From: an uncultured Lachnospiraceae bacterium
GTDB taxonomy: Bacteria; Bacillota; Clostridia; Lachnospirales; Lachnospiraceae
Direction of reading: 5' to 3'
Length of the DNA stretch: 33,195 bases
NCBI GenBank assembly: GCA_947382625.1
Contig: CANDAG010000041.1
Location: 1 to 33,195 of the forward strand
Translations under genes and position numbers: made by a program
Notes under the pieces: model-generated
Database searches by the model: none
Told to the model about the DNA's origin: nothing
The model's input: the letters and a program-made list of their open reading frames with translations, nothing else
Shown: one piece after another, positions 3-9,346 of the stretch
Numbering within the stretch: position 1 is the first letter of the stretch
How the letters are laid out: every line of letters begins with the position of its first letter

Positions 3-722
3 TCAATTATAATCCATTTTTTCCAAATAAGGAAGAATATTTTCAAAAAGCTGTCTCACTACCGGCGCAGCCACCTGGCTGCCGTAGTAATTTCCCTGAG
101 GTGTGTGGACGATGGCAAGGGCAAGCACCTGTGGATCATCTGCCGGTGCAAAGCCAAGAAAGGATGCAATATACCGTCCGCTTCCTCTGGGAAGCGTCTG
201 GCTGGTAGCCGTCTTTCCGCCAACCCTGGCTCCTTCCACATAGCCGTTTTTTCCTGAGCCCTTCTCAACCACCTGTTCTAAGATCATCCGCATGGTGGCA
301 GAGGTTTCCTCTGATACAATATGCTCCGTCACCGGATAAGAGAACCTCTTTATCTCCGTCCCCTCCCTGTCTGCCGTCATCACCGCAAAGTGAGGGGTGA
401 TGCGGTTTCCTCCGTTAATAATGGAAGATACGGTTGTCGCAAGCTGTATGGGAGTGATCTGGAAGGACTGGCCAAAGGACACCGTTGCAAGCTCTACCGA
501 TTTCATATCCTCCATCTTGTGCATGATCGTTCCTGCCTCCCCGGGCAGATCCACCCCTGTCTTGTTCTTTAAGCCGAACTGAGTAAAGTAGTGATAGTAT
601 CTCTCCACCCCAAGCCGCAAGCCTACCGTAATGAACACCGGGTTACAGGAAGCTACATAAATGATTTTTTTATGTATGATAAACCTCCCATCTTCCGCCA
701 TGCCCCTGCCTGATATAAGCAA
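3..722 (-). CDS. spoVD: 3' part of split SpoVD-like penicillin-binding protein
   Basis: This is the C-terminal half of a class B penicillin-binding protein (transpeptidase domain). The spoVD-derived part is 3-648. The first 24 codons of the open frame (upstream of about 650) are sequence of the inserted element and overlap the recombinase gene in another frame, so this start is probably not used. The frame begins in SpoVD at SCNPVF, the SxN catalytic motif, and continues through VSFGQSFQITPIQLA to GGKTATSQTLPRG, where KTA replaces the usual KTG. It ends at TGA (3-5) with no PASTA domain. The matching N-terminal part lies at 5845-6963. Joining the two across the shared 13-bp repeat gives a 576-residue protein in frame. 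It is called SpoVD rather than FtsI because a separate intact FtsI-type gene sits next door. The split gene itself is clear; the SpoVD name is an inference. Confidence 0.85.
   Translation of the reverse strand: MLISGRGMAEDGRFIIHKKIIYVASCNPVFITVGLRLGVERYYHYFTQFGLKNKTGVDLPGEAGTIMHKMEDMKSVELATVSFGQSFQITPIQLATTVSSIINGGNRITPHFAVMTADREGTEIKRFSYPVTEHIVSEETSATMRMILEQVVEKGSGKNGYVEGARVGGKTATSQTLPRGSGRYIASFLGFAPADDPQVLALAIVHTPQGNYYGSQVAAPVVRQLFENILPYLEKMDYN
636..648 (-). repeat. Left attachment core (13-bp direct repeat)
   Basis: The plus-strand sequence CACCGGGTTACAG is identical to 5866-5878. Read on the minus strand it encodes C-N-P-V of the PBP SxN motif. It sits 21 bp beyond the recombinase stop codon, the usual place for an attachment site next to a site-specific recombinase gene. 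Confidence 0.88.
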
Positions 723-2460
723 GCCGCCCCTCTTCCTTCAGCTCCCTGACCCTCCCGCTCACATAAGAAACACTCTTTTTCATCTGCTCTGCAAGCTCCT
801 TTAAACGAAGCTCAGGTTCCTTCTGAAGTCTTTGAAGTATGATCTCCCTGTCCGTTTCTCTCCTTTTTTGAGAGTTTGTCCTGTGAAGATACTGCGCCCA
901 AAGCATGCAGGGCTCCTTATGATCCATAAGGATCAGCAGCCTTCCATCACTGTGTACCGTAATCTGCCTGACATGTCCCAAAAGCTCTCGCGTCATCGCC
1001 CTTTTGATCAGTTTTTCCTCCTCTACCGCCTCCTTTATCTGCCTGATACGTGTTTCATAGTTATTATATGGTTCATGCTCCGTTCTCATGTCCTTAAGCC
1101 TGTCTTCAAGCGCCTTCATTTTTTGTGTAATTTCGTCATTATATTTTTGAAACTCTCCATCTTCTATGACAGAAGAAAGGAGTTTTTCCATAAGAACATC
1201 TTTTTTTGCCGACAGCTTATGGTGCTCTCTTTCAAGCCGTTTTTCCTCCTTTTGATCCCTTTTGGGGAAAAGCTCCTCCTTCAGCACCTCCATCAGCGCT
1301 TCAAGTATTTTCTCATGTTCTTCACGGCTTTCAAAAAGCACGCCGTAATATTCCTTCTCAAAAGCCTCTTCCAAAGCCTCCATTACCTCCGCTTCCATAA
1401 GGGACGGATTTTTGCACCCCCGCTCTCTGCCCCCTTCCAAAAAGCCGGCGCATTTCCAGTACACATCCCTCTCACCGCGTCCTCCCACCCGATAATAATA
1501 CCTTTCGCAGCAGGCGCACTTAAGCTTCCCGGATAGCTCATATTTGCCGCAAGGCTCCCCGGTTTCCTTTTTCCGGCCTTCTGCGCGGTCCCTCCTGTCC
1601 TTTGTGCGTCTCACAGGAGAATGCTCTGCCCGCTTCCTCAAAACAGAAAGCACCTGTTCCTGATATTCCTTTGATACAATGGGAGGAAGGGCATTTTCCA
1701 TAATGACCCACTCCTGTCTGGGAACCTCTTCATATTTTTTCAGGTCAAAATTATAAGTCCTTTTGTTCAGCACCATAGTCCCATGGGCTCTGGGCGTATA
1801 GAGCATTTTCCGCCACTGGCTCTGGGAAATCTTCTGTCCCTGCCGCCCCCTGGCTCCCAGTTCATACAGGGTATTGCTTATGGCATAAAACCCCTTTCCT
1901 TCCCCTGCAAGCAAAAAGGCAGTCCTGTAATATTCCGCCTCCTTCTCATTGATCTCATAACTATCCTTTGCCACCTTATTCCATCCAAACATCTCGCAGG
2001 TAATGTTACAGCCGCTTTTTTTGTCCTGCCGCCTTCTGTGGGCATTTTTGATCTTCTTGGAAAGCTCCCTGCTGAAATCCTCCGCCAGTATGGCTTTGAT
2101 CCCCGAGATCAGATTATCGTCCGGGGTATAGAATTTTCCTTCTATATAAATATACAATCTCAGCCTGTTTTCCGTGAGCCGGTTCAAAAACAGATACCAG
2201 TCCTTTGCAGAACGCATGAGCCGGTCAATGGACTTGATCATGACAATATCAAAGCGGTCTCTCTCCATATCCATAAGAAGCCTCTGGTACTCCCCCCGCT
2301 TATAGGCCACTGTTCCGGTTTCTGATTCTATATATTGCTCTGCGATCTCCCAGCCCTTCCTTTCCGCGATCTCCCTGCTCTCCATCACCTGGGAGGCCAG
2401 GGCATTCTTCTGACTCTCCTCCTCCGTGCTGCATCTGTTATAAATTCCTACCCTTTCCAC
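670..2460 (-). CDS. Large serine site-specific recombinase
   Basis: A 596-residue recombinase expected to catalyse integration and excision of the surrounding element. The N-terminal resolvase domain (about 1-140) has the catalytic serine at residue 11 in YNRCSTEEES, plus the downstream arginines of the SIDRLMR region. A recombinase DNA-binding domain follows (about 155-290), then a zinc ribbon with Cys315, Cys318, Cys337 and Cys349, and a charged coiled coil (about 400-490). The last 65 residues (about 533-596) look like a winged helix (LKELAEQMKKSVSYVSGRV), an extension I do not regard as standard for SpoIVCA-type enzymes. Translation starts at GTG immediately after the stop of the small upstream ORF, with a GAGGAG-like ribosome site inside that ORF, so the two are coupled. 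The stop lies 21 bp from the left core. No terminator is seen after it. Confidence 0.93.
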   Translation of the reverse strand: MERVGIYNRCSTEEESQKNALASQVMESREIAERKGWEIAEQYIESETGTVAYKRGEYQRLLMDMERDRFDIVMIKSIDRLMRSAKDWYLFLNRLTENRLRLYIYIEGKFYTPDDNLISGIKAILAEDFSRELSKKIKNAHRRRQDKKSGCNITCEMFGWNKVAKDSYEINEKEAEYYRTAFLLAGEGKGFYAISNTLYELGARGRQGQKISQSQWRKMLYTPRAHGTMVLNKRTYNFDLKKYEEVPRQEWVIMENALPPIVSKEYQEQVLSVLRKRAEHSPVRRTKDRRDRAEGRKKETGEPCGKYELSGKLKCACCERYYYRVGGRGERDVYWKCAGFLEGGRERGCKNPSLMEAEVMEALEEAFEKEYYGVLFESREEHEKILEALMEVLKEELFPKRDQKEEKRLEREHHKLSAKKDVLMEKLLSSVIEDGEFQKYNDEITQKMKALEDRLKDMRTEHEPYNNYETRIRQIKEAVEEEKLIKRAMTRELLGHVRQITVHSDGRLLILMDHKEPCMLWAQYLHRTNSQKRRETDREIILQRLQKEPELRLKELAEQMKKSVSYVSGRVRELKEEGRLAYIRQGHGGRWEVYHT

Positions 2461-2655
2461 TTAACTCCTCTTTTCGCCGTGTTCCCGGACGATCCTTTTT
2501 TTGATGGAAAATCTTTCATCCCTGCTTATAAACCCCTTCTCCCAAAGCAGATCTGCTATATGGAGCAAAAGACGGGAGGTGGTCTGCTCCATAGTCCTTT
2601 CTCTGTTTTCCACGGCATGCTCCCTGCTGTCTTTTACTTCAATATATGTAGACAT
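2461..2655 (-). CDS. Small ORF coupled to recombinase; candidate directionality factor
   Basis: A 64-residue protein if started at the ATG at 2653-2655 (MSTYIEVKDSREHAVENRER). The frame is open further upstream to a TTG, but that has no ribosome site and overlaps the divergent promoter. An internal ATG at 2590-2592 is also possible. The C-terminal half (RLLLHIADLLWEKGFISRDE) resembles the short helical SHOCT-like pattern common in small proteins of mobile elements. TAA abuts the GTG of the recombinase, so the two genes are co-transcribed and coupled. Position and size fit a recombination directionality factor or a recombinase regulator, as known for the C. difficile skin element, but no sequence homology can be claimed here. 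Confidence 0.6.
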   Translation of the reverse strand: MSTYIEVKDSREHAVENRERTMEQTTSRLLLHIADLLWEKGFISRDERFSIKKRIVREHGEKRS

Positions 2656-2733
2656 TTCTGAAGACTGAACCTTTGTACGCCAAAATCCCCAAATCCCAGG
2701 TTCCGAAGGCTCTGAAATTCTCAAAAAATACGA

Positions 2734-2762
2734 TTGACTTTAGCGCTTTAAACTTGTATAAT
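2734..2762 (+). promoter_or_regulatory. Consensus sigma-A promoter of ABC transporter operon
   Basis: TTGACT (2734-2739), a 17-bp spacer and TATAAT (2757-2762), a near-perfect vegetative promoter. The spacer contains AGCGCT within an imperfect dyad (TTTAGCGCTTTA) that could be an operator. Transcription would start near 2769, giving a leader of about 100 nt. It points away from the recombinase operon and lies in the divergent intergenic region. Confidence 0.8.
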
Positions 2763-2782
2763 CTGATACTAGGCGAAACAAC

Positions 2783-2837
2783 GGACAGCACGCTCCGCGG
2801 ACTGTCCTTATGTTAACAACGGGCAACACCTGTGTTG
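2783..2837 (+). promoter_or_regulatory. Leader dyads before the binding-protein gene
   Basis: Two inverted repeats lie in the transcribed leader. The first is GGACAG (2783-2788) with CTGTCC (2802-2807), enclosing the palindrome TCCGCGGA. The second is CAACAC-CT-GTGTTG (2824-2837). Its central ACACCTGTGT recurs at 4048-4057 in the leader of the permease gene, which suggests a shared operator or RNA signal. The regulator is unknown. Confidence 0.45.
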
Positions 2838-2871
2838 ATCTTTCGCTAAAATATTGTAGGAGGAAATCATT

Positions 2872-3966
2872 ATGAAAAAAGCACTTGCACTACTTTTAAC
2901 CGTAGTCATGGTGGGTTCTCTTGCTGCCTGTGGAAACACAGACACCCAGCAGACCTCTGCCAATGATGCGGCCTCTGCAGAAGATGCAGAAAACACAGAA
3001 ACAGAAGGCGATACTGCTGATGTAGCCGGGGACGAGGCTGACAGCGCACAGACAGAAGGCGCTGACGATGCAGCCGCCGATGACGCCTCATACACCGTAG
3101 GTATCTGCCAGTTAATGCAGCATGAAGCATTAGATGCAGCCACCCAGGGCTTCAAGGATGCTCTGACAGAAGCATTAGGCGATAAGGTAACCTTCAAGGA
3201 GCAGAACGCCCAGGGCGACACCAACACCTGCGCCACCATCATCAACAGCTTCGTATCCGAAAAGGTAGACCTGATCCTGGCAAACGCAACTCCCGCCCTT
3301 CAGGCAGCAGCTGCCGGAACCAACGAAATCCCTATCCTGGGCACATCCGTGACCGAATACGGCGTGGCTCTTGATCTTGACGATTTCACCGGTACTGTAG
3401 GAAACAACATTTCCGGAACCTCTGACCTTGCTCCCCTTGACGGGCAGGCAGACATGCTGCAGGAGCTGTTCCCGGATGCCAAGACAGTGGGTCTTGTTTA
3501 CTGCTCTGCTGAGGCAAACTCTCAGTATCAGGTAGATACTGTAAGAGGTTATCTGGAAGAGAAGGGTTACACCTGTGAAGATTATTCCTTCTCTGATTCC
3601 AACGACATTGCTGCCGTTGTGACCAACGCTGCCAACTCTGTGGATGTTATTTATGTTCCCACTGACAATACGGCAGCCACCAACGCAGGGATCATCAACA
3701 ATATCTGTCTGCCTGCAGGTATTCCTGTGGTTGCCGGCGAAGAAGGTATTTGTGCAGGCTGCGGCGTTGCCACTCTTTCCATCAGCTATTATGACTTAGG
3801 CGTTGCCACCGGAAAGATGGCTGCAAGGATCCTCTCTGAAGGGGAAGATGTTTCCACCATGCCCATTGAATACGCCCCCAACTTTGTAAAGAAATACAAT
3901 GCCGCCAACTGTGAGGCATTAAATATTACAATCCCTGACGGCTATGAGGCAATAGCGGCCGAATAA
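2872..3966 (+). CDS. TrpX-family ABC transporter substrate-binding lipoprotein
   Basis: A 364-residue extracellular solute-binding lipoprotein. The signal peptide ends in the lipobox SLAAC, with Cys20 as the lipidated residue. An Asp/Glu/Ala-rich linker (about 21-72) tethers the folded domain to the membrane. The body (YTVGICQLMQHEALDAATQG onward) matches the ABC_sub_bind/TrpX family pattern (periplasmic-binding-protein fold). Some relatives bind tryptophan or tyrosine, so an aromatic amino acid or similar small ligand is plausible, but the substrate cannot be assigned from sequence. The ribosome site AGGAGG lies 8 nt before ATG. It is the first gene of a binding protein-permease-ATPase operon carried inside the spoVD-interrupting element and read from the promoter at 2734. 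A terminator-like hairpin follows it, consistent with more binding protein than membrane subunits. Confidence 0.88.
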   Translation: MKKALALLLTVVMVGSLAACGNTDTQQTSANDAASAEDAENTETEGDTADVAGDEADSAQTEGADDAAADDASYTVGICQLMQHEALDAATQGFKDALTEALGDKVTFKEQNAQGDTNTCATIINSFVSEKVDLILANATPALQAAAAGTNEIPILGTSVTEYGVALDLDDFTGTVGNNISGTSDLAPLDGQADMLQELFPDAKTVGLVYCSAEANSQYQVDTVRGYLEEKGYTCEDYSFSDSNDIAAVVTNAANSVDVIYVPTDNTAATNAGIINNICLPAGIPVVAGEEGICAGCGVATLSISYYDLGVATGKMAARILSEGEDVSTMPIEYAPNFVKKYNAANCEALNITIPDGYEAIAAE

Positions 3967-3984
3967 CAGCGTATTATCAAAATG

Positions 3985-4034
3985 GCGGGAGAAAATTTCT
4001 ATTGCAATTCTCCCGCTATTCTATTACTATTTTG
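3985..4034 (+). terminator. Attenuating hairpin between binding protein and permease
   Basis: GCGGGAGAA (3985-3993) pairs perfectly with TTCTCCCGC (4008-4016), followed by a T-rich tract (4018-4033) that is not a pure T run. It probably causes partial termination or 3'-end stabilisation, giving excess binding protein. TTGCAA (4002-4007) and TACTAT (4025-4030), 17 bp apart, could be a weak secondary promoter. Confidence 0.6.
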
Positions 4035-4047
4035 TATGGCAAAGCAC

Positions 4048-4057
4048 ACACCTGTGT
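4048..4057 (+). promoter_or_regulatory. Repeated ACACCTGTGT element upstream of permease
   Basis: The 10-mer ACACCTGTGT is identical to 2826-2835. It lies 52 nt before the permease ATG, compared with 46 nt before the binding-protein ATG. The neighbouring bases also resemble each other: GGCAA upstream, and AAAATAT then GGAGGAAA downstream. This looks like a duplicated leader signal. Confidence 0.4.
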
Positions 4058-4099
4058 ACTGCCCGACTATAAAATATCTATCCGGAGGAAACTGATCCA

Positions 4100-5023
4100 A
4101 TGAATATCCTAACTCTGTTCGGCTCCATGCCCGGCGCCATCGCCCAGGGACTGATCTGGGGAATTACCGCTATCGGAATCTACATAACCTATCGAATCCT
4201 GGACTTTGCAGATCTGACCGTGGACGGCTCCATGTGTACAGGCGGAGCTGTGTGTATTATGATGATGCTTTCCGACCATAACGTCTTCGTCTCCATGCTG
4301 GTAGCCACAATGGCAGGAATGCTGACAGGACTGGCCACAGGACTCTTTCATACTTTTATGGGCATCCCCCCTATCCTGTCAGGAATTTTGACCCAGCTTG
4401 CCCTGTATTCGGTAAACCTTGCCATCATGGGGAAGGCCAATCAGTCCATTAATGTTGACAAATACAACCTTCTGGTTGCTCTCAGATATATTAAGGGTGT
4501 TCCCTTTTACAGAAACCCGATCTTTGTAACCGCTGTCTGTATTCTCCTTTTGATCCTGTTTCTCTACTGGTTTTTCGGGACAGAAATCGGATGCGGCCTT
4601 CGTGCCACCGGCTGCAATGCGAATATGGCCAGGGCTCAGGGCATCAACACAGACTTTTCCAAGGTATTAGGACTTATGATCTCTAATGGTCTGGTAGGGC
4701 TTTCCGGCGCTCTGCTGGCACAATACCAGAACTTTTCGGATGTTTCCATGGGCAGAGGTGCAATCGTGATTGGTCTTGCCGCTGTGATCATCAGCGAAGC
4801 GATCTTCGGACGCCTTTTCCACAACTTCGGCTTCAAGCTCTTCGGCGTGGCGCTTGGCTCCATCCTCTACTATATGGTGGTGCAGACCGTCATCTGGATG
4901 GGTGTAAAGCCCGACTGGTTAAAGGCCCTCTCCGCTTTAGTGGTTGCTTTCTTCCTGGCTATCCCCTATTGGAAGAACAAATATATCTCCGGAAAAGATC
5001 TCGGAAAAAATAAAGTCGCATAG
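4100..5023 (+). CDS. TrpY-family ABC transporter permease
   Basis: A 307-residue multi-spanning membrane permease of the branched-chain/TrpY type (BPD_transp_2 fold), the channel partner of the binding protein at 2872. About eight to nine hydrophobic segments are visible. The N-terminal GLIWGITAIGIYITYRILDF followed by ADLTVDGSMCTGGA is typical of the family. A conserved cytoplasmic loop (GCGLRATGCNANMARAQGI, about residues 156-175) would contact the ATPase. GGAGG precedes the ATG by about 11 nt. The stop is 13 bp upstream of the ATPase start, so the two are translated from one message. The protein acts in the cytoplasmic membrane as a dimer. Confidence 0.88.
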   Translation: MNILTLFGSMPGAIAQGLIWGITAIGIYITYRILDFADLTVDGSMCTGGAVCIMMMLSDHNVFVSMLVATMAGMLTGLATGLFHTFMGIPPILSGILTQLALYSVNLAIMGKANQSINVDKYNLLVALRYIKGVPFYRNPIFVTAVCILLLILFLYWFFGTEIGCGLRATGCNANMARAQGINTDFSKVLGLMISNGLVGLSGALLAQYQNFSDVSMGRGAIVIGLAAVIISEAIFGRLFHNFGFKLFGVALGSILYYMVVQTVIWMGVKPDWLKALSALVVAFFLAIPYWKNKYISGKDLGKNKVA

Positions 5024-5036
5024 GAGGATCGTCATC

Positions 5037-5831
5037 ATGCTTGAAATGAGAAATGTTACCAAGGTTTTTAATAAGGGAACCGTCAATGAAAAGCTGGCTC
5101 TGGACAATTTCTCCCTGACCCTGGAGGAAGGCGATTTTGTCACCGTGATCGGCGGAAACGGCGCCGGGAAATCCACCATGATGAACGCCATCTCCGGCGT
5201 ATGGCCTGTGGATTCCGGTCAGATCATCGTAGACGGAGTGGACATCACCAGACTTCCGGAGCATAAACGCGCCAGGTTTCTTGGACGCGTCTTCCAGGAT
5301 CCTATGACCGGTACTGCCGCCACCATGGGGATCGAGGAAAACCTTGCTCTTGCCAAACGGCGCGGACGCACCCGCTCTCTCCGCACAGGAATCTCCAAAA
5401 AAGAACGGGAAGAATACAAAGAGCTGTTAAAAATTCTGGGTCTGGGACTGGAAGACCGTATGACCACCAAGGTAGGTCTTTTATCCGGCGGCCAGCGTCA
5501 GGCGCTTACCCTGCTGATGGCTTCGCTCCAAAAGCCCAAGCTGCTTTTGTTAGACGAGCATACCGCCGCCCTTGATCCCAAAACCGCCGCAAAGGTTCTG
5601 GACACCACCGAATACATTATAAACAGAGATCATCTGACCACCCTCATGATCACCCACAATATGAAGGATGCGATTGCTCACGGCAATCGTCTGTTCATGA
5701 TGATGGACGGAAAGATCATTCTGGATATCCGGGGAGAGGAAAAGAAGCGTCTGACAGTAGAGGATCTTCTCCACAAATTCGAGGAAGCCAGCGGGGAAGC
5801 CTTTGTAAGCGATAAGGCGATACTCGGATGA
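5037..5831 (+). CDS. TrpZ-family ABC transporter ATPase
   Basis: A 264-residue nucleotide-binding subunit that powers the transporter. Walker A is GGNGAGKST, the signature is LSGGQRQAL, and Walker B is LLLLDEHTAALD followed by the H-loop in MITHNM. The start chosen is the ATG at 5037 (MLEMRNVTKVF), which follows AGGAGG at 5022-5027. The frame is open upstream, but that part lies inside the permease gene. It is the last gene of the operon and stops 34 bp before the right attachment core. No terminator follows, so transcripts may continue antisense into the spoVD 5' part, up to the hairpin at 6968-7017. Confidence 0.92.
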   Translation: MLEMRNVTKVFNKGTVNEKLALDNFSLTLEEGDFVTVIGGNGAGKSTMMNAISGVWPVDSGQIIVDGVDITRLPEHKRARFLGRVFQDPMTGTAATMGIEENLALAKRRGRTRSLRTGISKKEREEYKELLKILGLGLEDRMTTKVGLLSGGQRQALTLLMASLQKPKLLLLDEHTAALDPKTAAKVLDTTEYIINRDHLTTLMITHNMKDAIAHGNRLFMMMDGKIILDIRGEEKKRLTVEDLLHKFEEASGEAFVSDKAILG

Positions 5832-5844
5832 GATTTATGATCTT

Positions 5845-6963
5845 TTAAGCCTGCAGTTCCATAACCACCGGGTTACAGCTGTTCATAGTGGCTTCTATAA
5901 AGTTCTGTGCGCCGTGACCCGCTGTCTTATGGCAGCGGATCCGCCGATCCTCCACCATGATAAATCCGGGACAGCTGAATCTGTCCTCCGGCGTCACTAC
6001 CCCCTCCTCTAAGCCTGCCGCAGCAGTGATGATCTTGAAGGTAGATCCCGGCTCATAGGTATCGTTGATACAGCCGTTCCTCCACATCCGGTTCAGCTGC
6101 TCCTGCTTTTGTTCCTCGGTAAGGCTTTCAGAGTCAATTCCTTCCGGAAGGGTATAAGGATTATTCAGGTCAAACTCCGGCACATCCACCATGGCCATCA
6201 ACTCCCCGTTCTGAGGATTCATGACCAGAATAGACACCCTCTCCGCCTCTTTTGTCTCCATCACCTGTTTGGCCAGCTGGGTGGCATAGCTTTGTATGTT
6301 CATGTCCAGACTGATGTAAAGATCATTTCCCGGTATGGATTCCACTCTTTTTTCCCCTGCGGCATCAATTTCCACACCTCTTGCATCAGTGACCGTAAGA
6401 ATCATCCCCTCCTGCCCCTGCAGATATTCCTCATATTTAACCTCCAGGCCAATGATTCCCTGGTTATCGCCGCCTGTGAAGCCCAGCACCTTTGATGCAA
6501 GGGTATCATAAGGATAATAACGCTTGTAATCCTCATCCACCTTGACACCTTCCAGATTATAAGCCCGGATGGCATCTCCTTTTTCCTTTCCCACATTGCT
6601 CTTGATCCGTTCGATAGATGAATACTTTTCTACCCTTTTGCGAACATAATCTTCTGAAAGCTCCAGCTCTCTGCTCAGGATCTCCACCACTTTGTCCGGC
6701 TCCTTGATCTGATTATGTATGACAGAGATCGTACAGACCGTCTTATTATCTGCGATCACCGTGCCGTTGGCATCCAGTATCCTTCCCCGCGCTGCCTTAA
6801 TGCTCCTTTCCCTCTCGTGAAGGTCATCGGCCTTTTCCGTATAATAATCAGACTGAAAGATCATCAGATATCCCAGCCGCGCTGCAAGAAGCAGTATGAT
6901 CATCAGCGAACCAAAGAAAATAGTAACGATTTTTTTTCTGTGAAAGGTTTTGCTGTTTTCCAT
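5845..6963 (-). CDS. spoVD: 5' part of split SpoVD-like penicillin-binding protein
   Basis: The N-terminal 372 residues of a class B PBP that cross-links peptidoglycan; SpoVD family members make spore cortex in sporulating cells. It has one transmembrane anchor (about 12-34), a PBP dimerisation domain with RGRILDANG, and the start of the transpeptidase domain with the nucleophile motif STFK (307-310). It breaks off at MNSCNPV, then reads six foreign residues (VMELQA) to TAA inside the element. Alone it lacks the rest of the active site and should be inactive. The start is the ATG at 6961-6963 (MENSKTFHRKK). A longer frame to 7011 runs through the terminator hairpin and has no ribosome site. 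The ribosome site TGAGG lies in the 3' arm of that hairpin. It can be rebuilt with the 3' part by loss of 5,230 bp. Confidence 0.88.
   Translation of the reverse strand: MENSKTFHRKKIVTIFFGSLMIILLLAARLGYLMIFQSDYYTEKADDLHERERSIKAARGRILDANGTVIADNKTVCTISVIHNQIKEPDKVVEILSRELELSEDYVRKRVEKYSSIERIKSNVGKEKGDAIRAYNLEGVKVDEDYKRYYPYDTLASKVLGFTGGDNQGIIGLEVKYEEYLQGQEGMILTVTDARGVEIDAAGEKRVESIPGNDLYISLDMNIQSYATQLAKQVMETKEAERVSILVMNPQNGELMAMVDVPEFDLNNPYTLPEGIDSESLTEEQKQEQLNRMWRNGCINDTYEPGSTFKIITAAAGLEEGVVTPEDRFSCPGFIMVEDRRIRCHKTAGHGAQNFIEATMNSCNPVVMELQA
5866..5878 (-). repeat. Right attachment core (13-bp direct repeat)
   Basis: An exact second copy of the core at 636-648, encoding C-N-P-V at the end of the spoVD 5' part. 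Flanks diverge immediately on both sides, as expected for a recombinase crossover core. Confidence 0.88.
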
Positions 6964-7017
6964 AAAAAACCTCATGAAACAGGTGTTAATACAATCTATT
7001 ACCTGTTTCATGAGGTT
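6964..7017 (-). terminator. ftsI terminator that buries the spoVD ribosome site
   Basis: A perfect 17-bp inverted repeat (7001-7017 with 6968-6984, 16-nt loop), read on the minus strand, ends in six T residues directly followed by the spoVD ATG. It begins about 20 nt after the ftsI stop, so it is a textbook intrinsic terminator for ftsI. TGAGG in its 3' arm is the only ribosome site for spoVD, so read-through RNA would also mask translation. The plus-strand side is T-rich too and may terminate the antisense transcript. Confidence 0.85.
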
Positions 7018-7036: not shown

Positions 7037-9346
7037 TTATGGAGAAGGCGATGCAGATGCTTCCGGTGATGGTGATGCACCGGCTCCCGGATCCGTCTGT
7101 GATGTCTCCGGGCTAATACCGCCTTCATAGCTGCCGCCTAACACGGCACCGGTCTCTGGATCAACATAGGCGCCGGTCTCCGGATCCTTGGCATAACCTG
7201 TCTCCGGATCGATAGGAAAATCCTTCCAGGGCTCTTGTCTCGGTGCGTTTTCCGCCCCCTCGCCTTCTGTCCCTTCTCCGGAACCACCCTCCGGATTTTC
7301 ACCGGTTCCTGCTCCTTCTGTTCCCTCAGGATTCTCCCCTGCAGAACCCTCCACAGCTCCATCCGCGGAGTCCTCCCCGGTTCCCGCAGGCGGAGTCATG
7401 ATCTCAATGTGAAGTGCCTCTAATTCCTCTCTTTCCTTATCGGTAAGCTCCTCTGTCATAAAAATTCCCATATAGGGAAGAACCTCTGTCAATATATTTT
7501 TGACAATTTTTGTGGCAAACTTTGCATCCGCCTGCAGATCCCCCACAATATTGGGCCTGTCCACTACCACATAAATGGCCACCTGGGGATCGTCTACCGG
7601 TGCGTATCCCATAAAGGATACCACATACTCCTTGTTTCCTCTGGGCAATGTCTCCGCTGTTCCGGTCTTGCCGCCGATCATATAGCCTGCCGGTCTGGCG
7701 GTTTTTCCGGTTCCGTTTTCACCGGACACTACCAGATTACACATTTCGCGCACTTTGGCAGAGGTGGTTTCTGAAATTACCTGCTTTAGCAGCCTTGGTT
7801 CAATATTCTGAACAGTCGCGCCGGAAGGGCTTACGATCTTGCTGACCACATGGGGTTCATAATAATAGCCGCCGTTGATCAGGGAACAGAACCCTGCCAT
7901 CATCTCGATCATAGTAACGTTAAATCCCTGTCCGAAGCTGCCGGTGGCAAGCTCTGTAGGTCCCATGGGACCTGCAAGGCTCTCATCATTGTACACAAGG
8001 TCCGCGGTACGGGATTCCCCTGCCAGATCGATATTGGTCTTCAGTCCCATATTAAAAATATGCTGAAATTCCGTAAAGGTATCGATTCCTGTAGCCTGAG
8101 CGATATACATCATATTCACGTTGCAGGAGCTCTCAATTCCCTGCGCAACCGTTAAATAGCCGTCTCCCCATCTGTTATGGCATTTGATGTCATGGCCCCC
8201 GATATTCAGCGACCCATTGCAGGTGTAGCCTTCATTTCCCGTAATACTGCCGCTCTCTATCCCTGCCGCTACGGTAAAAGGCTTTGATACGGAGCCCGGT
8301 TCATAGGTATCGCTGATACAGAAATTTTTCCATAAGGCATTTAAGTTCTGGTAAAGAGCATCCGCGTCCTGCTCTAAGGCACGGATATTCTCTGCATTGA
8401 TATATTCCTGAGTCTTTTTTCCTTCGGCATCCAGCATCCGCATACCGATCAGGGCATCCGTATTCCGGGTATCATTCAGATCAAAAACCGGGTATGTGGC
8501 CATTGCCAGAACATTTCCGGTATTCACATCCATCATGATACAGCCTATATTATTGGCGCCGTTCCCTTCATGGAAATTATCTTTGTATTCTTCGTCATAT
8601 TTGGCAAGATATTTTTCTACGATCCTCTGGATATTTATATCTATCGTTGTGATGATATTATTGCCGTCCTCTGCCGGGATCGTGGTTCTCTCCAGATTGG
8701 AATCATCATTTAAATATCCATACTCCCTGCCGGCTGTACCGGAGAGCACATCGTTATAATATTCCTCCAGCCCGTAAGAGCCTACATTGTCACTGGTGGT
8801 AAAACCGACCACATCGCAGGCAAGGCTTCCGCCGGGATAAACTCTCTTATACTCATTCTCAAACCAGATTCCCTTTACGTTAGACCCTTCCTCATTCATC
8901 AGCTCCAAAAAACCGCTGATCTGTTCATATTCCAGCCGTCTTGCAAGAACCTTATAGCGGGATGAATCCTTATTTGCCTCCACATAGCTGCGCACCTCGC
9001 CGGTATCGATGCCGAACTGGCTTCTTAAGGCCTCCATGGTGGGCTCCATATATTCTTCCTTTTCCGTAAGAGCCACGGCATCCAGAATAACATTGTAAAC
9101 CTTTTCACTGGAAGCTAAAACGCTGCCGTTGGCATCTAAAATGGAACCCCTTTTGTAGGGGATCGTGGTGCTGTCATAACGCTGCTGGGAAAGCACCTGT
9201 TTTTTGTACTTCTCGCCCCGGTCCCTGGTAATGGCAAACAAACGATAAGATAGTCCTACAAAGGATACCAGGATCACCAGAAACATGACCAGGAGCTTTT
9301 TTTGCATTTTTATGGTAAATCTGTTATTTCTCTTTCTTTTTCTCAC
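7037..9346 (-). CDS. ftsI: Division-type penicillin-binding protein 2B/FtsI
   Basis: A 769-residue class B PBP that cross-links septal peptidoglycan in the divisome. A basic N-terminus and one transmembrane helix (about 17-39) precede the dimerisation domain (KRGSILDANGSVLAS). The transpeptidase domain carries SVSK (352-355), SCN (407-409) and KTGT (560-563). The body ends near 645. A long, probably extracellular low-complexity tail (about 653-769) follows, rich in Gly, Glu, Pro and Ser, with three DPETG units and a final ASPSPEASASPSP. The tail is unusual for FtsI. Start is GTG, with AGGTGA upstream, 12 nt after ftsL. Gene order ftsL-ftsI identifies it as the vegetative division enzyme. A strong terminator follows. 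Confidence 0.92.
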   Translation of the reverse strand: MRKRKRNNRFTIKMQKKLLVMFLVILVSFVGLSYRLFAITRDRGEKYKKQVLSQQRYDSTTIPYKRGSILDANGSVLASSEKVYNVILDAVALTEKEEYMEPTMEALRSQFGIDTGEVRSYVEANKDSSRYKVLARRLEYEQISGFLELMNEEGSNVKGIWFENEYKRVYPGGSLACDVVGFTTSDNVGSYGLEEYYNDVLSGTAGREYGYLNDDSNLERTTIPAEDGNNIITTIDINIQRIVEKYLAKYDEEYKDNFHEGNGANNIGCIMMDVNTGNVLAMATYPVFDLNDTRNTDALIGMRMLDAEGKKTQEYINAENIRALEQDADALYQNLNALWKNFCISDTYEPGSVSKPFTVAAGIESGSITGNEGYTCNGSLNIGGHDIKCHNRWGDGYLTVAQGIESSCNVNMMYIAQATGIDTFTEFQHIFNMGLKTNIDLAGESRTADLVYNDESLAGPMGPTELATGSFGQGFNVTMIEMMAGFCSLINGGYYYEPHVVSKIVSPSGATVQNIEPRLLKQVISETTSAKVREMCNLVVSGENGTGKTARPAGYMIGGKTGTAETLPRGNKEYVVSFMGYAPVDDPQVAIYVVVDRPNIVGDLQADAKFATKIVKNILTEVLPYMGIFMTEELTDKEREELEALHIEIMTPPAGTGEDSADGAVEGSAGENPEGTEGAGTGENPEGGSGEGTEGEGAENAPRQEPWKDFPIDPETGYAKDPETGAYVDPETGAVLGGSYEGGISPETSQTDPGAGASPSPEASASPSP

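Follow-up and report, generated by a model that had tools for sequence, protein, structure and literature searches.

The second of two tandem class B penicillin-binding protein (PBP) genes, of spoVD type and on the minus strand, was found to be split at the Asn codon of its SxN motif by an element of 5,230 bp in an uncultured Lachnospiraceae bacterium (GenBank assembly GCA_947382625.1, contig CANDAG010000041.1). The contig was analyzed over its whole length of 33,195 nucleotides (here termed the window) and belongs to a 4.18-Mb draft genome of 113 contigs that is 88% complete. Between the two gene halves, the element encodes a large serine recombinase, a small open reading frame (ORF) upstream of it and an ABC transporter. 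We consider it very probable that this is a site-specific, non-phage intervening element seated in the SxN codons of spoVD and that it is excised in the sporulating mother cell, by which the gene is restored. A sporulation intervening element in spoVD had been the original prediction, and it is supported by uninterrupted relatives, intact halves and selection on these halves, from which we infer excision. The components of the split locus are as follows.

3..648, minus strand: C-terminal half of the spoVD-type gene; C part of Pfam Transpeptidase; spoVD_pbp model positions 345-558
636..648, minus strand: right junction repeat; exchange core AA at 643-644
5845..6963, minus strand: N-terminal half of the spoVD-type gene; Pfam PBP_dimer and N part of Transpeptidase; spoVD_pbp model positions 3-352; stops a few codons past SxN
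5866..5878, minus strand: left junction repeat; exchange core AA at 5873-5874
7037..9346, minus strand: intact, unsplit class B PBP, FtsI-like, 769 amino acids (aa), by Pfam and NCBIfam; adjoins the split gene

When the whole 4.18-Mb genome was scanned, exact copies of the 13-bp repeat CACCGGGTTACAG were detected at 636-648 and 5866-5878 only, in agreement with the earlier claim of one copy at each half, 5,230 bp apart. Collapse of this repeat had been predicted to give an in-frame protein of 576 aa. The joined frame in the window was indeed 362 + 214 = 576 aa, a length also measured in 15 of 18 uninterrupted relatives (the remaining three being 575 aa, 599 aa and cut by a contig end). A genome search revealed no second spoVD-type copy in the genome of the window. 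Uninterrupted homologues with the predicted junction were present in 18 genus genomes, and no frame-disrupting mutation was detected in the 19 N-terminal and 18 C-terminal halves inspected.

The N-terminal half was used as a query against a genus set of 37 genomes (own included) and was found in 35; G012 and G013 gave no spoVD match at E 1e-60. The gene was split in 17 of the 35 loci read (own included) and uninterrupted in 18. All 17 split loci had the transporter ATPase and permease, while the substrate-binding protein and the recombinase were each detected in 16; in G026, a contig stops before the gene of the former, and a C-terminal fragment of the latter lies beside the C-terminal half. 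Identity of the C-terminal half among relatives was 80-97%, identity of the ATPase across the other 16 split genomes was 84-89%, and element size across the genus was 4.8-8.0 kb. This distribution bears on whether the split is an assembly artefact, as might be suspected from a contig whose start lies 2 bp past the C-terminal half's stop codon in a draft genome that is 88% complete. Fourteen other genus genomes had the same arrangement within one contig (the two halves were on separate contigs in G026 and G029), and it was also seen in six database contigs including that of Parablautia muri D42-62, five of which appear to overlap genus genomes already counted. Thus, we regard misassembly as exceedingly improbable.

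A family sample of 397 genomes was searched with the recombinase at a threshold of E 1e-60. By this approach, a match was detected in 25 genomes, four of which had a split spoVD: G000 and G001, plus G100 and G158 of two other genera. The latter two had the same codon split and a related recombinase with different cargo, which by eye looks like glycerol kinase and FAD-dependent dehydrogenase genes in G100 and a DnaK gene in G158. A survey of the same family sample with the N-terminal half matched 257 of the 397 genomes; among the matches listed, open frames shorter than 450 aa were found in G000, G001, G100, G158 and G263 only. In G263, of a third other genus, the frame breaks at the same codon with the same left junction; only 428 bases of contig follow the match, and the C-terminal half was not found at E 1e-50. 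As judged by sequence, a functional and excisable element is supported by the retention of both halves under selection (see below) and by the recurrence of the split, with other cargo, in other genera.

Junctions were compared in 18 split genes, namely those of the 16 genus members with both ends read plus G100 and G158. The contiguous stretch common to both junctions at the exchange point was 2 to 17 bp. Only one such stretch, AA, was common to all 18 genes; it forms the first two bases of the SxN Asn codon and was the entire shared junction in G019 and G158. The 13-bp repeat put forward as the junction in the original prediction is true of the window and, on this comparison, is the window species' longer local match around an AA core. 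Large serine recombinases exchange at a two-base core, and the presence of AA in all split genes fits this mode of exchange. The consensus right junction, ATAAACACC-TGTAACCC-GGTGTTTAT, forms an inverted repeat centred between the two A's, with a left arm that is poorer in the window. Joining at AA was in frame in 18 of 18 split genes; it yielded MNSCNPVFITV in all 16 genus members and SCNPVF in G100 and G158. In the uninterrupted genomes, MNSCNPVFITVG was found in 17 of 18, with G025 (cut by a contig end) reading KNS ahead of the core. The unexcised N-terminal half, by comparison, encodes Lys rather than the SxN Asn in 7 of 17 genus genomes and also in G100, G158 and G263.

Ratios of nonsynonymous to synonymous distance (dN/dS) were calculated by the Nei-Gojobori method with our own script. 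For six close split pairs (synonymous distances, dS, of about 0.4-1.4), dN/dS was 0.015-0.029 for the N-terminal half and 0-0.023 for the C-terminal half, compared to 0.042-0.071 for FtsI and 0.11-0.14 for the recombinase of the same pairs. Uninterrupted pairs gave N- and C-terminal values of 0.024 and 0.026 (G028-G006), 0.014 and 0.008 (G031-G010), and 0.032 and 0.041 (G024-G018). The two halves of the window gave 0.022 and 0.028 against the uninterrupted neighbor G036; its C-terminal half gave 0.036 and 0.039 against split G019 and G002, for which the N-terminal comparison was saturated. A value of 0.134 for the N-terminal half of G027-G016 was obtained at a dS of 0.017, which is too small to weigh. 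Both halves are under strong purifying selection, similar to uninterrupted pairs, and this would be difficult to account for without excision of the element at the time the enzyme is required. The intact FtsI-like gene next door could mean that the insertion is dead, with spoVD a relic whose work is done by another PBP. Such a relic is highly improbable given dN/dS values of 0-0.03 for both halves in close split pairs, like those of uninterrupted pairs, and given halves that read without stops or frame breaks.

An active enzyme might also be assembled from two halves made as separate chains, with no excision. A possible start was found upstream of the C-terminal half in 8 of 16 genus loci. The other eight loci, by contrast, had no ATG, GTG or TTG between the last in-frame stop and the core; thus, no start that would take in the SxN motif is available to the C-terminal half there, and its first internal ATG is codon 41. 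The Lys that replaces the SxN Asn in the N-terminal half of 7 of 17 genus genomes likewise speaks against separate chains, an arrangement to which we give very little credence. Taken together, the selection on both halves, the missing starts of the C-terminal half and the lack of a second copy make excision by far the most reasonable route to the joined enzyme that is under selection.

The spoVD model was the best NCBIfam match of each half, in each case below the whole-protein cut-off, and was also the best match, again below cut-off, of the adjacent FtsI-like protein. The latter was found at the position where the original prediction had placed an intact ftsI. On the minus strand the order of genes was rsmH, a short ORF at the ftsL position (for which no NCBIfam match was found), the 769-aa class B PBP and then the split class B PBP. 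We take the order of an FtsI-like gene followed by a spoVD-type gene to be the pbpB-spoVD order of Bacillus subtilis. Right before the spoVD start codon (window 6966-7017, minus strand), a hairpin-forming, terminator-like leader was seen by eye, the 3' arm of which contains the Shine-Dalgarno-like GAGGT; comparable sequences precede the gene in most relatives compared, split and uninterrupted alike.

SpoIVA was detected in all 37 genus genomes (36 above cut-off), and sigma-K-like matches were found in 36 of 37, all below cut-off as for the B. subtilis control; sigma-E was above its cut-off in the genome of the window. In published sources, spoVD is listed in the sigma-E regulon table (PMC3416734) and SpoVD makes the spore cortex in Clostridioides difficile (PMC8417463, PMC12713402). 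We infer that the interrupted gene is sporulation-specific in this genus.

The genes and putative control sequence of the element itself were assigned as follows.

670..2460, minus strand: large serine recombinase, 596 aa; Resolvase, Recombinase, Zn_ribbon_recom and HTH_24; YNRCST motif with Ser11; C-terminal winged helix
2461..2592, minus strand: small ORF directly upstream of the recombinase; 43 aa from an internal ATG; longest ORF extends to 2724
2641..2648, minus strand: promoter-like motif CATATATT, upstream of the small ORF and recombinase; conserved in relatives
2872..3966, plus strand: ABC transporter substrate-binding protein, TrpX-like; ABC_sub_bind
4100..5023, plus strand: ABC transporter permease; BPD_transp_2
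5037..5831, plus strand: ABC transporter ATPase; ABC_tran

The recombinase ORF ends 21 bp from the repeat copy at 636-648, as had been noted earlier, and its assignment as a large serine recombinase was borne out by its Pfam domains. Its catalytic motif YNRCST was conserved in 18 of 18 split loci. The C-terminal winged helix is found in the window and, as judged from length and end sequence, also in G033, G100 and G158; it is seemingly lost in most other genus members. By eye, 16 of 18 loci were seen to have a similar small ORF ahead of the recombinase, and 13 of these were aligned; the small ORF of the window had no family match in Pfam and NCBIfam searches and is a candidate partner or directionality factor of the recombinase. 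The substrate-binding protein scored 229 bits, below the NCBIfam TrpX cut-off of 390, and falls short of a TrpXYZ assignment. No phage structural or replication genes were found, as the Pfam domains of the five element ORFs (PHROGs was not used) were all of recombinase or ABC transporter type, and a pattern scan of viral contigs found no recombinase relative.

Of the 18 loci, 16 (all but G019 and G158) had a motif of the form [CA]ATAT[AT][CTA]T upstream of the small ORF and recombinase, compared to a mean of 2.4 and a maximum of 6 loci in 300 shuffles. On the reverse strand this motif was found in 9 of 18, but its A form is self-complementary and this is therefore no independent control; in the 150 bp upstream of the substrate-binding protein gene it was found in 5 of 15. 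Several copies are preceded by ATATT 13 bases before. When the region upstream of spoIVA was inspected in 20 genus genomes, the matching place was occupied by CATACATT in 16, by CATACACT in G000 and G036 and by CATATATT in G015; among the matches listed, G034 had the last six bases of CATACACT, and an ATAA-like sequence lay about 14-15 bases before in most. The motif upstream of the recombinase appears to resemble the spoIVA promoter of this genus. With SpoIVA in 37 of 37 genomes and a spoIVA-like motif in 16 of 18 loci, excision in the mother cell is the best reading, and its timing is probable from the identity of the gene, the sporulation gene content and the promoter-like footprint.

Several observations weigh against this timing or against excision. 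The window's own motif is without a good -35-like ATATT. When a sigma-E consensus was used for scanning, the region upstream of the recombinase scored 9.5 versus 8.58 in shuffles (maximum 9.22 of 100), yet its reverse strand reached 9.44 and the region upstream of FtsI 9.83; the scan was judged unspecific and dropped as evidence. No joined or circle-junction copy of the repeat was present in the window's own assembly, although vegetative DNA would look likewise. In addition, SpoVD of C. difficile also acts at the polar septum (PMC12713402), earlier than sigma-E would allow; in split species another PBP, for instance the FtsI-like neighbor, would have to take over at this stage.

We propose that the recombinase of the element, probably with the small-ORF product as partner, recombines the two AA cores, such that the 5.2-kb element would be released as a circle and the 576-aa SpoVD restored in the frame computed above. 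Excision would most likely occur in the sporulating mother cell under a sigma-E-type mother-cell sigma factor. The forespore chromosome would keep the element, so its loss would not be inherited. The transporter would be captured cargo, which germ-line loss of the element would also remove.

Within a clade of nine species, the recombinase tree was found to have the same sub-groups as the host tree, and recombinase and FtsI distances were correlated (Mantel r 0.57 for 16 species and 0.82 without G022; 0 of 2000 permutations as high). The recombinase of G022 (locus L027) groups with those of G100 and G158, yet the element there carries the genus transporter, a pattern suggestive of recombinase replacement in situ; the G022 branch is long and this placement is unsure. 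The 17 element-borne transporters lay on one side of a branch (support 90/95) versus eight free-standing copies; a ninth free copy, of G008, was left out of the tree as its sequence is full of N. The transporter operon occurs free in the chromosome of nine uninterrupted species (L100-L108), in more than one neighborhood. In five uninterrupted species situated among split ones (G006, G028, G030, G034 and G036), the ATPase was not detected at E 1e-70, which loss of the entire element would predict. The history is most simply read as one gain and several losses. Against this reading, six more uninterrupted species (G010, G018, G020, G023, G024 and G031) also sit among split ones, and five of these hold a free transporter copy that groups with the free rather than the element copies, which fits whole loss less well; the split state, moreover, requires five changes when mapped onto the host tree. 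Repeated gains are possible, as is an ancestor that carried both transporter copies.

This history also bears on whether an excisable integrative element simply leaves at random or under stress, free of developmental control, with only the sub-population that has a restored gene completing sporulation. The 18 of 35 genus genomes that are uninterrupted, including the five species among split ones that are also without a close transporter copy, look as if the element can be lost for good. Integrated and excised forms of the yin element, moreover, coexist in pure culture (PMC10747680), and developmental control of the spoVD element is an interpretation. Random exit would, however, purge the germ line over time, yet the element follows the host tree in the nine-species clade and a conserved motif is kept upstream of its recombinase. 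We consider uncontrolled exit unlikely and favor excision as part of mother-cell development.

The arrangement is similar to that of skin in sigK of B. subtilis and C. difficile, where an element with a large serine recombinase likewise splits a mother-cell sporulation gene that a precise join restores (PMC5025042, PMC3416734). The spoVD element differs from skin in host gene, in size (about 5 kb compared to 48 kb in B. subtilis; PMC3416734, PMC5025042) and in its metabolic cargo, with no phage genes found; its excision and control are predicted here. The gin element in gerE of Bacillus cereus is also non-phage, with a serine recombinase and a short shared junction, but spans 28.6 kb with 31 genes and three recombinases, in contrast to the one recombinase and transporter of the spoVD element (PMC5595907). 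Also within sporulation genes are yin in yabG, vfbin in spoVFB, the spoVR elements, SPbeta in spsM and the kamA prophage, all in other host genes and several of them prophages or prophage-like (PMC10747680, PMC6957869). The interrupted genes named in the portions of these sources consulted were sigK, spoVFB, spoVR, spsM, gerE, kamA and yabG (PMC6957869, PMC10747680); spoVD was not named in PMC10747680 and PMC5595907 by text search, nor met in the consulted part of PMC6957869. ICEBs1 of B. subtilis has also been placed inside spoVD, albeit at a laboratory-selected secondary site from which excision was undetectable (PMC3715440). The remark made at the outset that no described spoVD case was known agrees with searches of the open PMC literature (subscription papers and preprints lay outside this scope), in which no natural interruption was found and only the experimental ICEBs1 case was met. 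The gene spoVD would be a new host gene for the skin-type class, here with a non-phage element that displays the sequence-level features tested.

By this finding, an enzyme of cell-wall synthesis joins the short list of sporulation genes apparently rebuilt by DNA excision, in gut bacteria for which no earlier report was found. The split points to which of the two tandem PBP genes is dispensable for growth and yields a testable prediction on the earliest time at which SpoVD can act. The element persists across much of the genus with ordinary metabolic genes, and other genera have different cargo at the same codon. Annotation pipelines may label spoVD as broken where the gene probably works. A broader proposal, which we hold to be evenly balanced between right and wrong, is that interchangeable non-phage cassettes have long docked at the SxN codon of spoVD in at least four Lachnospiraceae genera, with every cassette coupling a recombinase to ordinary host genes (transporter, glycerol-kinase-like or DnaK-like). 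Every sporulating mother cell would then rearrange its genome, gaining a cortex transpeptidase and losing the cargo, with the spore line keeping both. If true, this would represent a programmed difference between germ line and soma and a hard lock against SpoVD production during growth.

Related recombinases (about 30-40% identity) were also considered as splitters of sporulation genes, with no such case found: seven genus loci (L080-L086) and the 21 other family loci had no PBP in their flanks (for the family loci, about 1.5 kb was read for most and several kb for 11), and no sporulation gene was found among the neighboring genes of L080, L083 and L090. At L080 and L090, the recombinase gene (about 36-39% identity) stops no more than about 70 bp from an apparently truncated ABC permease ending in GLGYLIIYGSQVF, possibly another gene split by a related element.

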